From: Haloplanus sp. GDY1
Lineage (GTDB): Archaea > Halobacteriota > Halobacteria > Halobacteriales > Haloferacaceae
DNA length: 64,000 nucleotides
Assembly (NCBI RefSeq): GCF_023703775.1
Contig: NZ_CP098514.1
Coordinates: forward strand, 124,001-188,000
Reading direction: 5' to 3'
Shown here: positions 4,134 to 9,614 of the stretch, one piece after another
Layout: each line of letters begins with the position of its first letter
Position numbering within the stretch: the first letter of the stretch is position 1
Program-made: the position numbers and the translations under genes
The notes under the pieces: generated by a model
Seen by the model: only the letters and a program-made list of their open reading frames with translations
The model's database searches: none
What the model was told of the DNA's origin: nothing

Positions 4134-5186
4134 TCAGCGCTCGATGGCGAACAGCCGTTCGTTGTTCGCCGCGTAGAGGGCGTCGTCGCCGGCGACGACC
4201 GTTCCGACGGTGCTGTTCGTCTCCAGTTGCCACCGGTGCTCGCCGGCCCGCGAGAACGCGTAGATCCGGTCGTCGTTCGAGCCGGCGTACACCGCGTCGT
4301 CGGTCACCGCCGGCTGGTAGACGGTGCTGTTCTCGTCGGCGTACGACCAGCGCTCGGCGCCGTCCGACCGATCGAGCGCGACGAGCGTCCCGTGGTCGCG
4401 CCCGCTACAGCCGAGATACACCGCGTCCCCGTCGACGACGGGTCGGGTCCCCCGCTTCGGCGACGGCGTGTCGACCGCCCACCGGACGGAGCCGTCGGCG
4501 CGGTTCAGCGCGATCAGCCGTCCCGCCCGACCCGGCTCCGTCGACGTGGCCACGTACACCGTCTCCCCTTCGACCGTGGGGCTCCGGGTCTCGGCGTCGG
4601 TCCGATACCGCCACCGACGCTCGCCGTCGGTATCGAACGCCGTGACGACGCCGTCGACGCGGTTGGTGAAGACGACGCCGTCGGCCGTCGCGGCCGGCGT
4701 CGTGAGGCGCTCGCCGCCGGTGTCGACGCGCCAGTCCACCGTGCCGGCCTCGGCGTCGACGGCGAGCAGGTCGTCGGCGTTCGCGTACACCCGCCCGTCG
4801 CCGACGGCGACGCCCCCCCTGAGCGGCGACCCGACGAACCACGCCCGCTCGCCGCCCGGCCGCCGAAGCGCCCGGAGGCCGTCACAGCCCGGGACGTAGA
4901 CCCGGCCGTCGTCGACGGCGATGTCGCTCCGCAGGCAGAGCCGGCGGTCGAACTCGCTCTCGCTGTACTCGGCCGTCCACTGCGTGCCTCCGTCGGCCGG
5001 CGACAGGGCGTACAGCGTCAGGCGATCCATCGCGTAGAGGACGCCGCCGTCGAGGAGGGGCGTGCCGCGGATGCTCCGCCGCCAGCGGATCCGATCCGAC
5101 GAGGGTCCGGACGACCCGATGCAACCGGCGCCGACGCCGGCGAAGACGCTCCCGACGGCCTGGAGGGTGGTTCTGCGGGAGACCAT
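4134..5186 (-). CDS. Tat-exported PQQ-type beta-propeller lipoprotein
   Basis: A 350-residue protein. The N-terminus MVSRRTTLQAVGSVFAGVGAGC has a twin-arginine motif followed by a hydrophobic core and a lipobox Cys, so it is probably exported folded by Tat and anchored by a lipid. The rest consists of about seven repeats, each with a strand such as GRVYVP, GVVFTN, DAVYLG or DAVYAG followed by a W-containing strand (VDWRVDT, RRWRYRT, VRWAVDT, ERWSYAD). This is the blade signature of PQQ-like/BamB quinoprotein propellers. No dehydrogenase cofactor residues are evident, so a scaffold or binding role is likelier than an enzyme. Codons upstream of 5186 look like out-of-frame sequence, so the Tat start is preferred. 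Confidence 0.8.
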   Translation of the reverse strand: MVSRRTTLQAVGSVFAGVGAGCIGSSGPSSDRIRWRRSIRGTPLLDGGVLYAMDRLTLYALSPADGGTQWTAEYSESEFDRRLCLRSDIAVDDGRVYVPGCDGLRALRRPGGERAWFVGSPLRGGVAVGDGRVYANADDLLAVDAEAGTVDWRVDTGGERLTTPAATADGVVFTNRVDGVVTAFDTDGERRWRYRTDAETRSPTVEGETVYVATSTEPGRAGRLIALNRADGSVRWAVDTPSPKRGTRPVVDGDAVYLGCSGRDHGTLVALDRSDGAERWSYADENSTVYQPAVTDDAVYAGSNDDRIYAFSRAGEHRWQLETNSTVGTVVAGDDALYAANNERLFAIER

Positions 5187-5245
5187 GGTCCGGAGATGTG
5201 TTCCGCCGGAAAAGAACGTTGCTGTCGGTCGCTCTCTCGGAGACG

Positions 5246-5644
5246 TCACTCCCGGGCGTCGTCGGTGTTGAGCCTGTAGTAGGTGGTCGTCCCGTCGCCC
5301 GTCTCGACTTCCTTCTCCGCGACGGTTCCCTCGGCCACCAGTTCGTCGAGCGCCTCGTCGACGTCGTCGATCAGCATGCCGCTGGCGACGACGTCGCCCG
5401 CCAGATCCACCAGTTCGTCCTGAATCTCGGTCAGCACCTCGCGGATCGTCTCGGGGCGGGCGTCGTTGCCGAAGTCGACGCCGCGGACGATTTCGGTGCG
5501 CGTGTACGCGTTGTCGACGTTCTCCGAGAGGAACGCGACGATCAACTCCTTCTCGTCCTCGTAGTCGCCGACGGGAGTGGTCCCCGCGGCCGTCGCACTA
5601 TCCGCCCGGGACCCGTCGTCCCACTCGTCGTCGGAGATTGGCAT
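5246..5644 (-). CDS. Acidic haloarchaeal protein with a wing-like C-terminal domain
   Basis: A 132-residue acidic protein. Residues 1-30 are a disordered Asp/Ser/Gly tail. From about 35 it is helical (EKELIVAFLSEN...YTRTEIVRGVDF...ETIREVLTEIQDELVDLAGDV), ending with DELVAEGTVAEKEVETG and TTYYRLN, the strand-turn-strand pattern of a winged helix. It probably binds DNA or a protein partner, but no named family is recognised. The ATG at 5642-5644 (MPISDDEW) is preferred to an upstream in-frame start because the acidic haloarchaeal composition begins there. Confidence 0.6.
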   Translation of the reverse strand: MPISDDEWDDGSRADSATAAGTTPVGDYEDEKELIVAFLSENVDNAYTRTEIVRGVDFGNDARPETIREVLTEIQDELVDLAGDVVASGMLIDDVDEALDELVAEGTVAEKEVETGDGTTTYYRLNTDDARE

Positions 5645-6707: not shown

Positions 6708-7649
6708 TCAGTCGGCCGTCGCCGATCCCTCGCCGTCGGGGTCCGGCCCGTCCGGGCTCCCGGCCCAGTAGTCCTCCAGCGGACCGTCGACACCGGTCAG
6801 TTGGATCCACGCCTGGGAGGTGATGCCGAGGATGAGTATCGAGACGACCGACGACTCGAGCGCCAGCGCCGTCTGACCGAGCAGGGCCACCGGTGACCGG
6901 AACGTCGCTTCCGGCACGAACTCCCCGATCAGCAGGCTGAATCCCAGGTTGATCCCGTAGGGGACGACGACCGCCGCTCCCAGTCGAAGCCGGTTCCCCG
7001 CGACGACGCGCCAACTCCGGACGAACGCCGTCGGAACCGTCGCGTCCCGGACGGCGAGTTCCTGCCCGACGAACGAGAAACTCAACTGGACGAACGCGAC
7101 GGGCAGCAGGACCACCACCAGCGCCGGGACGAAGAGAAGCGGCGTGTACGCCGATCCGGTGAGCGCCGTCCGCAGCGATTGCGGGAGCACGGCCACGACC
7201 GCTATCGTCCCGAGGAAGACGGCGATCACGCCGGCGAACGTCAGGGCGAAGATGGCGAGGAGTCTGAGCAGCGTGGCGACGAAGTATCGGAGCGTCGTCC
7301 ATCCGAGTCTGCGAAACACCAACAGCTCCGGGAGACGGTCGCGTCCGTCGTCGACGAGCGTGCGGACGGCGACGATCTGTATCGGGATCGTCAGCACGCC
7401 GCCGGTGATCCCACCGAGGAGCGCAGCGGTCGCCGACACCACCGTCGGGAGGGTCGTGCCGGGCGCCGGCGCCCCGGACGGTGCCGCGGCCCCGGCCATC
7501 CCGAGGGGAACGTACGTCGTCGCCAACACCCAGACGAACGCACTCTGGAGGACGCTCGCGACGAAGAGGGTCGTCATCAGGAGGGCACCGTTTCGCGTCA
7601 GGGCGCGTTCGAGACCGCCGGCGACGACCTGCCGAACGTGGAGACCCAT
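6708..7649 (-). CDS. Polytopic membrane protein of a haloarchaeal paralogous family
   Basis: A 313-residue protein with about six membrane helices in pairs. Two FVGQE/FVRSWRVV-type segments (SFVGQELAVRDATVPTAF, then VRSWRVVAGNRLRLG) are closely mirrored in the 8630-9397 gene (FYGQAIVVDGTTVIASF, KRSYRVVRANLLATVG), so the two are paralogues. I recall such proteins under DUF7847-type names but am not certain. The start MGLHVRQ (7647-7649) is preferred. The palindrome at 7692-7708 lies about 43 bases upstream, the same spacing as at its paralogue. It is probably a target of the neighbouring winged-helix regulator. Function unknown. Confidence 0.65.
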   Translation of the reverse strand: MGLHVRQVVAGGLERALTRNGALLMTTLFVASVLQSAFVWVLATTYVPLGMAGAAAPSGAPAPGTTLPTVVSATAALLGGITGGVLTIPIQIVAVRTLVDDGRDRLPELLVFRRLGWTTLRYFVATLLRLLAIFALTFAGVIAVFLGTIAVVAVLPQSLRTALTGSAYTPLLFVPALVVVLLPVAFVQLSFSFVGQELAVRDATVPTAFVRSWRVVAGNRLRLGAAVVVPYGINLGFSLLIGEFVPEATFRSPVALLGQTALALESSVVSILILGITSQAWIQLTGVDGPLEDYWAGSPDGPDPDGEGSATAD

Positions 7650-7691
7650 GGGCCGGGGTTCACCGCGTCGAGAGTTCAAACCCGCGGGTTC

Positions 7692-7708
7692 TTTTCCGGC
7701 TCGGAAAC
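7692..7708. promoter_or_regulatory. Palindromic operator, copy 1
   Basis: The sequence contains TTTCCG, three bases, then CGGAAA (7693-7707), a perfect inverted repeat. Its near edge is 44 bases upstream of the start of the membrane-protein gene that runs leftward from 7649. A weak TATA-like stretch lies between them. The same palindrome recurs at 7833-7847 and 9441-9455 at the same distance from two other starts, so it is read as a binding site for a dimeric regulator acting just upstream of the core promoter. Confidence 0.7.
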
Positions 7709-7831
7709 CGTCGCGCGGGTGGAACCGCGGGGGACGGACCGGTCCCGGAGGGCCGGAGCGAAGCGGGGGAGGTCGGGGCGGGGACCGGCACGCTGAGGGA
7801 GGGCAGCCGGACGGTAAAGCGCGGGTGTAGA

Positions 7832-7848
7832 CTTTCCGGCCCGGAAAA
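7832..7848. promoter_or_regulatory. Palindromic operator, copy 2 (regulator promoter)
   Basis: TTTCCG-n3-CGGAAA at 7833-7847. Its near edge is 43 bases before the GTG start of the winged-helix regulator at 7890. A good TATA-like box (TATTAATT, 7859-7866) sits between, about 27 bases before the start, which supports a leaderless transcript from 7890. The site suggests that the regulator controls its own gene. Confidence 0.72.
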
Positions 7849-7889
7849 CGAGTGGAGGGTATTAATTGGTCCGGGCTGAAGGCTCCGAC

Positions 7890-8237
7890 GTGAGTGAGGG
7901 TCCTTCCACCGAGGAACTATTCGCGCTCCTCGACGACGAGTATGCGCGGGCGATCCTCACTCGGACGAGTATCGAACCGATGTCCGCCAAAACCCTGAGC
8001 GACCGATGCGATGCCTCCCTGCCCACGATATACCGGCGCACCGAGCGCCTCGTCGACTGTGACCTGCTGGCCGAACGAACCGAAATCGGCGAGGACGGCC
8101 ACCACTACAGCGTCTTCGAGGCACGGCTCGACAGCCTCACCGTCGAACTGGACGAGGGTGACCTCTCGGTGACCGTCGAAGCGGAGGCGACCGAGGACCC
8201 GGCCGACCGCTTCACCGACCTCTGGGAGGGGATCTGA
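7890..8237 (+). CDS. Winged-helix transcriptional regulator (autoregulated local regulon)
   Basis: A 115-residue protein starting with GTG at 7890; the TTG at 7866 overlaps the TATA box and is unlikely. Residues about 10-75 form an ArsR/MarR-like winged helix: LLDDEYARAILTRT, SAKTLSDRCDASLPTIYRRTERLVDCDLL as the recognition helix, then the wing ERTEIGEDGHHYSVFEA. The C-terminal strand region (SLTVELDEGDLSVTVEAEA) may dimerise. Its stop is followed after one base by a small membrane-protein gene, a pairing I recall as common in haloarchaea. Palindromes before its own promoter and before two membrane-protein genes suggest it controls them, and their position upstream of TATA is more typical of activation. 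Confidence 0.8.
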   Translation: MSEGPSTEELFALLDDEYARAILTRTSIEPMSAKTLSDRCDASLPTIYRRTERLVDCDLLAERTEIGEDGHHYSVFEARLDSLTVELDEGDLSVTVEAEATEDPADRFTDLWEGI

Positions 8238-8238
8238 C

Positions 8239-8565
8239 GTGCTCCGAACCATCAGCACGGGACTGTACGTGAACTACCTCGCGTTGCTGGCGGTGACGCT
8301 TTTGGGTCTGGTGCTCGGCCTCGCCATCGTCTTCCAGGCCTACCGTGGGTACCGACGCAACCGGAGCCAGCCGATGCTGTGGCTCGCGGTGGGGTTGATC
8401 CTGCTCACGGTCGTCCCGTTCGTGGTGTCGCTGACGGTCGCGTCCGTCGGGACCGCGCTCCGCTTCGACCCGGTGGTCTACACCTACTACGCCCCGATTT
8501 TCAACAGACTCATCGAGGTCTCCGGGCTGGTCTGCATCCTCTACTCGCTCTATCGTCGACCCTGA
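8239..8565 (+). CDS. Small membrane protein partnered with the winged-helix regulator
   Basis: A 108-residue protein with a GTG start one base after the regulator stop, so it is almost certainly in the same operon and translationally coupled. Three hydrophobic helices are visible (about 13-33, 46-68, 90-105). The first is followed by a basic loop (AYRGYRRNRSQPMLW) and the protein ends YSLYRRP. The composition resembles haloarchaeal DUF7521-type proteins that sit beside winged-helix genes; this family name is from recall. It may act as the membrane signal input for the regulator. Confidence 0.7.
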   Translation: MLRTISTGLYVNYLALLAVTLLGLVLGLAIVFQAYRGYRRNRSQPMLWLAVGLILLTVVPFVVSLTVASVGTALRFDPVVYTYYAPIFNRLIEVSGLVCILYSLYRRP

Positions 8566-8629
8566 CTCCGAGACGACGGGACGGCCGACGCCGATCCCGG
8601 GGACGGACGGGGTGTCGACCGACCGGGCG

Positions 8630-9397
8630 TCAGTCGGCGAGTTCGTCGTAGACCGCGACGGAGAACGTCAGCATGAACGCCGAGGCGACGCTGCCGAGCA
8701 CTGCCGCGAGTAGCCCCACGCCGACGAGCAGGGGCGTCGAGAGCGCCGGCAGGCCGTACGTCGCGGCGGCTTCGGGACTGGCCAGTACCGAGACGCCGGC
8801 GTAGACGCCGCCGGAGAGCGCGCCGATCACCAGCGCGAGAAGCACGTAGCCGACCGTCGCCAGCAGGTTCGCCCGGACCACGCGATAACTCCGCTTGAAC
8901 GAAGCGATGACGGTCGTCCCGTCGACGACGATGGCTTGGCCGTAAAACTGGACGAAGAACGCGACGACGAGATACGTCAGCCCCGCCACGGCGGCGAGTG
9001 CGACGAACGCCATCCTGACGGCGTCGTGGGTTACGAACGCGCCGACGCCGGCCGCGAACCCGATGGCACCGAGGACGCCGTTGACCACGAGCAGGACGAC
9101 GTAGGCGGCCAGCAGCCGGAGGTAGTTGGCCTTCCCTTCGGCGACGAACCGCGACAGCGAACTTCGGGTGGTGAGCGCCTCGTCGGCCATCCCGAGCATG
9201 CCGCCCTGCACGAACGGCATCCCGACGAGCAGGACCGCGGAGGACCCCAACGAGAGGAGTACCGACGCCGTCGGGTACGTCGACTGCAACAGCAGTTGGG
9301 GCAACAGCAGCACGAACACGAGCAGTTGCGGGACCAACAGGCCGGGGGCACGCGCGAGCGCCCCCGGTGTGCGGCGGAGTGCTTGGAGGACTCCCAT
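8630..9397 (-). CDS. Polytopic membrane protein, paralogue of the 6708-7649 product
   Basis: A 255-residue protein with about six membrane helices. It shares the arrangement GQAIVVDGTTVIASFKRSYR then VRANLLATVGYVLL with the 6708-7649 product, and an N-terminal LVPQLLVFVLLLPQLLL-type helix. I chose the ATG at 9395-9397 (MGVLQALRRTPGAL). A TATA-like GTTATAC (9420-9426 on the minus strand) lies 23-29 bases upstream and the palindrome 9441-9455 lies 44 bases upstream. The promoter layout matches that of its paralogue, which indicates co-regulation. Function unknown. Confidence 0.68.
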   Translation of the reverse strand: MGVLQALRRTPGALARAPGLLVPQLLVFVLLLPQLLLQSTYPTASVLLSLGSSAVLLVGMPFVQGGMLGMADEALTTRSSLSRFVAEGKANYLRLLAAYVVLLVVNGVLGAIGFAAGVGAFVTHDAVRMAFVALAAVAGLTYLVVAFFVQFYGQAIVVDGTTVIASFKRSYRVVRANLLATVGYVLLALVIGALSGGVYAGVSVLASPEAAATYGLPALSTPLLVGVGLLAAVLGSVASAFMLTFSVAVYDELAD

Positions 9398-9439
9398 GGA
9401 CGGAAGACGGGCGCCTCGGGGTATAACCCCCGACACACG

Positions 9440-9456
9440 TTTTCCGACTCGGAAAA
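9440..9456. promoter_or_regulatory. Palindromic operator, copy 3
   Basis: TTTCCG-n3-CGGAAA at 9441-9455, extended by T and A to a 17-base match. Its near edge is 44 bases upstream of the membrane-protein start at 9397, exactly as at copy 1, with a TATA-like GTTATAC between. It is the third member of the set. Confidence 0.7.
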
Positions 9457-9540
9457 GACGCCGCAGTCCGTCGATCGAGCACTGAGTGTGACGGTCGCAC
9501 ACCGCCGACGAACTAACCGGTGAGGGATCGGGAGGAAGAT

Positions 9541-9614
9541 GCTCCGACTGGGATTCGAACCCAGGTCATTGCCGTGAGAGGGCAATATGATTGGCCGGAC
9601 TACACTATCGGAGC
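9541..9614 (-). tRNA. tRNA-Glu (anticodon CUC)
   Basis: Read on the minus strand the 74 bases fold as a complete cloverleaf. The acceptor stem is GCUCCGA paired with UCGGAGC. The anticodon arm is UUGCC-CUCUCAC-GGCAA, giving anticodon CUC, and the T arm is CUGGG-UUCGAAU-CCCAG. The CCA end is not encoded and no intron is present. An AT-rich box TTTAAATATC lies about 48 bases upstream (9660-9669). It decodes GAG. Confidence 0.97.

Follow-up and report, generated by a model that had tools for sequence, protein, structure and literature searches.

A probably mobile haloarchaeal cassette in which a winged-helix regulator, its DUF7521 partner, and two membrane-protein genes share one palindrome

Several described switches resemble parts of the locus analyzed here. 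In Bacillus subtilis, a small ArsR-like helix-turn-helix (HTH) protein and a polytopic membrane protein form an autoregulating two-gene operon, in which SdpI sequesters the autorepressor SdpR on meeting its ligand (PMC1626106). In Haloferax volcanii, OxsR, a single-domain TrmB protein with one winged HTH domain, binds a palindrome; it activates from upstream of the transcription factor B recognition element (BRE) and TATA box, and represses from downstream of them (PMC9426492). Activation by GvpE likewise depends on an element that lies upstream of both BRE and TATA (PMC8241225), and CsmR of Haloferax volcanii has its palindrome at a fixed place beside the TATA box (PMC13286277). Here, we examine a 64,000-nucleotide stretch of Haloplanus sp. 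GDY1 (NZ_CP098514.1, positions 124,001 to 188,000; hereafter the window), in which three copies of the palindrome TTTCCG-n3-CGGAAA precede an operon of a regulator and a DUF7521 protein and two flanking membrane-protein genes. These genes probably form a horizontally transferred cassette whose regulator controls its own operon and both membrane-protein genes through the palindrome, with activation favored and DUF7521 as the putative signal partner.

The three sites stand at nearly the same distance from the genes that they precede. Operator 1 (TTTCCGGCTCGGAAA, 7693–7707) lies 43 bases from the ATG at 7649 of the leftward target 1 gene, operator 2 (TTTCCGGCCCGGAAA, 7833–7847), which is putatively autoregulatory, lies 42 bases from the GTG at 7890 of the rightward regulator gene, and operator 3 (TTTCCGACTCGGAAA, 9441–9455) lies 43 bases from the ATG at 9397 of the leftward target 2 gene. 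A sequence-only reading of the window had reported perfect palindromes at these coordinates, with near edges 43–44 bases from the starts; the palindromes and their equal spacing stand, while the distances are corrected to 43, 42, and 43. It had also placed a TATA-like box between each site and start, and we see one at all three promoters. The box is good for the regulator gene (TATTAATT, 7860–7867, forward strand, −30 to −23 from a leaderless-type start) and for target 2 (leftward TTATAC, 9421–9426, reverse strand), and weak for target 1 (leftward TTTGAA, 7675–7680, reverse strand, about −31). With its TATA-like element some 30 bases ahead of the start, each of the three promoters has a leaderless appearance. 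The operators are wholly upstream of these elements, with a gap of 9–12 bases from site edge to TATA. Exact copies of the palindrome number three in the whole genome of 3,435,985 bp, all within one 1.8-kb stretch, where base composition predicts 0.09 copies per genome and a reversed control pattern has none.

The regulator gene (7890–8237, forward strand) encodes a 115–amino acid winged-helix protein with the recognition segment CDASLPTIYRR. Profile searches place it in the ArsR-like HTH_20 family (PF12840; 30 bits against a curated cut-off of 27, E 5e-7), and its profile also matches solved ArsR-type structures. It remains below the curated cut-off of the HVO_A0261 N-terminal domain (PF25213; 26.9 bits against 35) and that of the SdpR autorepressor model (NF033789; 13.2 bits against 100). 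Because of this low SdpR score, the SdpR/SdpI pair serves as a working analogy only. One base past the regulator stop codon begins a presumably cotranscribed gene (8239–8565, forward strand), whose product is a small membrane protein of the DUF7521 family (PF24365; 44.4 bits against a curated cut-off of 27). In the literature searched, from which subscription journals were largely absent, no relevant paper names DUF7521 or DUF7847, the family of target 2, and none describes a regulator-DUF7521 system.

Searching 84,980 species genomes with the regulator gave 80 loci, nearly all from named haloarchaea, and in 79 of them tblastn places DUF7521 immediately after the regulator. In 65 of the 80 loci, the segment from −66 to −50 before the regulator has a site that departs from TTTCYG-n3-CRGAAA at two positions or fewer, compared with 0.4% of random control windows of the same DNA. 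Across positions −150 to −5, sites with at most one mismatch peak at −61 to −56, and a TATA element is conserved in relatives 12–19 bases past the site. The sequence-only reading had named random scatter of the motif, or its loss from relatives, as outcomes that would speak against a regulon. We find the reverse: the motif is unique to this locus in the genome and kept in those 65 loci. Its proposal of a small regulon, with sites belonging to the local regulator, is borne out by this uniqueness, by conserved position and recurrence, by sites found in trans, and by the joint change of recognition helix and half-site. The further proposals of that reading, namely binding of all three sites by the regulator, activation, and a signal from the membrane partner, stay at the level of inference.

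We find that the half-site varies with the recognition segment of the neighboring regulator. Segments of the form ..ASLPT(I/V)YRR pair with TTTC-type half-sites, and segments of the form ..MSxSTVYRR occur with T[T/C]GCTG/CAGC[G/A]A (GC-type) half-sites in 10 of 11 cases, as against none of 87 for the PT types. The Haloplanus genome itself encodes a regulator paralogue (C1:926405; loci L144/L229) with the segment ..MSDPTAYRR and two DUF7521 copies. Before its start lies a private palindrome, CTTCCGATACGGAAG (CTTCCG-n3-CGGAAG), in a single genome copy, and a related protein in a congener has a palindrome of the same type. This locus is apparently an insulated parallel circuit. Taken together, the pairing of helix with half-site and the private palindrome of the paralogue make the product of the 7890 gene the most likely reader of the TTTCCG-n3-CGGAAA site.

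The cassette recurs as a whole outside the genus. Haloferax massiliensis (L064) has all of it, with each of the three sites 42–43 bases from its start. DNA similarity to this species and to Halomicrobium katesii (L065) extends from 6756/6760 to 9456, with gaps between the genes, and the true extent of the cassette is about 6756–9456 by this comparison. The cross-genus similarity ends one base beyond the outer edge of operator 3. Thus, the cassette is inherited as a block across families, and the regulator tree joins the Haloferacaceae and Haloarculaceae proteins as a pair (support 100/94). Within the genus, no close regulator orthologue occurs among the 11 congeners searched, where the best match is 59%, and two congeners that were sampled for the exact motif lack it and likewise lack a regulator orthologue.

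We propose that the regulator binds the palindrome about 50 bases upstream of the three leaderless-type promoters, most likely as a symmetric dimer, given the symmetry of the site. It would thereby autoregulate its own operon and co-control both flanking membrane-protein genes. DUF7521 probably responds to the state of the membrane by holding or modifying the regulator, and on a membrane-borne signal the regulator would activate by recruiting transcription factor B (TFB) and the TATA-binding protein (TBP). Since the sites lie just upstream of the TATA boxes, we lean toward activation with moderate confidence, by analogy with OxsR and GvpE. Candidate targets across relatives are CysZ/choline-transporter-like (CTL) proteins, a CAAX protease, ATP-binding cassette (ABC) exporters, and lipoproteins, which suggests a role in envelope stress or in defense against membrane-active agents.

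The described systems differ from this one in several respects. OxsR belongs to another HTH family, recognizes a CG-repeat motif, is a thiol sensor, and governs a genome-wide oxidative-stress regulon with no membrane partner. The GvpE element is 20 nucleotides long and serves an unrelated regulator of gas-vesicle genes. CsmR uses the motif TATCA-n4-TGATA, and represses motility genes within a large regulon; it was rejected as a description of the same regulator because the motif differs. Like SdpI, the membrane partner here could pass on a signal, but DUF7521 is a family of its own, the cassette adds two membrane-protein genes with identical operators, and the sign of control may be opposite.

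The same regulon could also work with that opposite sign. Under this alternative, which we take seriously without preferring it, the regulator represses its own operon along with both targets, until DUF7521 sequesters it on a membrane signal and the three promoters are released together. The two-gene layout of a small ArsR-like HTH protein and a membrane protein is that of SdpR and SdpI (PMC1626106), and the regulator matches the SdpR model weakly (E 0.064), at a score of 13 set against a cut-off of 100. Repression from beside the TATA box has a precedent in CsmR. Against it, the site lies wholly upstream of the TATA element with a gap of 9–12 bases, which is the activating position for OxsR and GvpE, and the weak TTTGAA element of target 1 would be of the kind seen in helper-dependent promoters. 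Our own reading must in turn be weighed with several limits. In 15 of the 80 regulator loci, the expected place has no site within two mismatches, and some of these carry GC-type sites. The Halomicrobium katesii cassette is present with a degenerate target 1 site. The GC-type regulators form one clade (100/95), so the joint change of helix and half-site counts as one evolutionary event, not ten. CsmR of Haloferax binds beside TATA and represses (PMC13286277). Finally, BRE strength, compared with only 17 background promoters, gave no indication of whether the promoters depend on an activator.

Two other readings deny the regulator its role. The sites might be bound by a different, genome-wide haloarchaeal factor, with the neighboring HTH gene merely one of its targets, and exact sites do stand before ABC ATPases in two loci (L212 and L213) whose fetched stretch of 10 kb showed no regulator homologue. 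We consider this improbable, since the sites and the HTH gene move together from family to family, the half-site changes with its recognition helix, and the two congeners sampled lack both regulator and site. With only three exact copies, all in the cassette, a global factor with a genome-wide motif was rejected for this genome. A chance or DNA-structural origin, for example as terminators or repeats without a regulatory role, seems very improbable indeed. The window holds 57 perfect 6-n3-6 palindromes, and one other half-site is also present three times, but that triple is spread over 58 kb. The three cassette sites share one spacing from their starts, are unique in the genome, and are conserved over many genera; on these grounds, chance was rejected as their source.

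The two targets are membrane proteins whose relationship is remote. Target 1 (6708–7649, reverse strand; 313 amino acids), which is polytopic, has no Pfam or NCBIfam match, DUF7847 (PF25231) included, while target 2 (8630–9397, reverse strand; 255 amino acids) belongs to DUF7847 at 163 bits against a cut-off of 28.7 (E 1e-47). BLAST aligns the two over 36 amino acids only (E 3e-5), and profile-profile comparison of target 1 with the DUF7847 set matches 37 columns only, with 94% probability. AlphaFold models of the two proteins (predicted local distance difference test scores of 78 for target 1 and 89 for target 2) resemble the same two groups of solved structures, CysZ and CTL1/PNS1, along the whole chain. 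Target 1 scores Z 13.3 with CysZ and 11.7 with PNS1, the next unrelated fold having Z 8.1; target 2 scores Z 13.0 with PNS1, 12.7 with CTL1, and 11.3 with CysZ, the next having 7.6. For both targets, matches to the CysZ/CTL group have Z 10.6–13.3 over 193–252 residues, although high scores between helical bundles can arise by accident. Foldseek alone gave no significant match for the DUF7847 model, and the CysZ/CTL group came from a second aligner. As two separate models match the same two groups, clear of others, there is a fair sign of a common predicted fold. The sequence-only reading had called these proteins paralogous. Homology stands, through the shared segment of 36–37 residues and the shared folds; obvious paralogy does not, and the two are better described as remote homologues. 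Identity to the CysZ and CTL1/PNS1 proteins is about 10%, and a transport role for the targets would be putative.

Sites of the same kind precede candidate targets elsewhere. We searched 12 genomes with TTTTCYG-n3-CRGAAA and obtained matches in 11, with no control matches; most lie 41–46 bases before regulator or membrane-protein genes. In Halobonum (G245), a site on contig C5 precedes the regulator, and another on contig C68 lies 42 bases before a distant target 1 homologue. In G192, which has the genes of Haloferax mucosum (L071), sites lie 42 bases before a target 1 homologue, 43 bases before a CAAX prenyl protease–like protein (Pfam E 2e-18), and, on another contig, 45 bases before an ABC transporter ATPase. 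The exact sites of L212 and L213 stand 43 bases before DrrA-type ABC ATPases, and others stand 45 bases before a LolA-like lipoprotein (L214) and 46 bases before a gene, divergent from that of the regulator, for a “putative sensor” membrane protein (L221). A TTTCTG..CGGAAA site precedes a lipoprotein-like gene divergent from the regulator by 43 bases (L237). One match (G105:C76) is near neither a regulator nor a target homologue, and homologues of the two targets that lie away from the regulator are mostly without a site.

The right end of the cassette lies close to a tRNA-Glu(CTC) gene (9540–9614, reverse strand). Homology to congeners takes in this gene, its right-hand neighbor, or both, and halts at the tRNA 3′ end. 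Left of that end, at 9534–9539, no congener matches the window in the 8–15 kb fetched, save for a single one (L278) with a 74-base match at 4136–4209. This places the cassette on the variable side of the junction. The 3′ end of the tRNA-Glu(CTC) gene is, on these alignments, an integration hotspot, and the cassette was likely inserted there. The window itself has no second copy of the tRNA-Glu(CTC) 3′ end, and no integrase stood out in the 11 gene calls to the left of the tRNA, some of them checked against Pfam; insertion at the tRNA is therefore likely rather than proven. A displaced copy of a tRNA 3′ end is the usual mark of integration there. In two congeners of the L275–L285 set, such copies of the tRNA-Glu(CTC) 3′ end, 46–51 bases long, lie a few kb away.

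DUF7521 has no known role, and occurs, often in several copies, in most of the haloarchaeal genomes listed by the family search. In our phylum sample, 32 listed genomes of the same order have 1–10 copies; matches in some other families are mostly weak, and the control genome Haloferax volcanii has DUF7521 too. Once the operator of its partner regulator is fixed, targets can be predicted from sequence. The operator thus offers a first handle on this family, and Haloferax volcanii could serve as a host for testing both the sign of control and the signal. The cassette exposes an undescribed kind of membrane-linked gene switch that is open to laboratory study. Where one genome holds several such circuits that differ in half-site, the way in which new specificities arise among archaeal regulators can be studied directly. 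More speculatively, the cassette may be one member of a haloarchaea-wide, undescribed family of one-component switches, each a winged HTH protein with DUF7521 as its membrane partner. In such a family, private palindromes would lie 41–46 bases upstream of leaderless genes, half-sites would drift with the recognition helix and so keep paralogous circuits of one cell insulated, and the switches would control small, mobile envelope-defense cassettes that settle at, for example, tRNA genes.

Several further features were observed around these subjects. Residue C40 of the regulator (8007–8009) immediately precedes the recognition helix and shows no variation across 29 aligned homologues; a redox role like that of C24 in OxsR is conceivable. 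With two mismatches allowed, a palindrome search of the Haloplanus genome gives 81 matches versus 24 for the control, and many of the 81 have the form TCTCCG-n3-CGGAGA, possibly a different motif. In Natrialbaceae (L081–L128), a universal-stress-protein gene close to the regulator pair is preceded, at about 60–110 bases, by a strongly conserved TTTCTGGGTCGGAAA; this site falls at about +880 to +1180 relative to the regulator start, and its spacing is unlike that of other targets. Locus L010 has an exact TTTCCGTTCCGGAAA at 1501, which stands 42 bases ahead of a long open frame resembling aconitase by eye; this site may be due to chance or belong to another regulator. Left of the cassette, and like it on the variable side of the junction, a gene at 4134–5249 (reverse strand) encodes a PQQ/BamB-like beta-propeller protein with a lipoprotein-like start.

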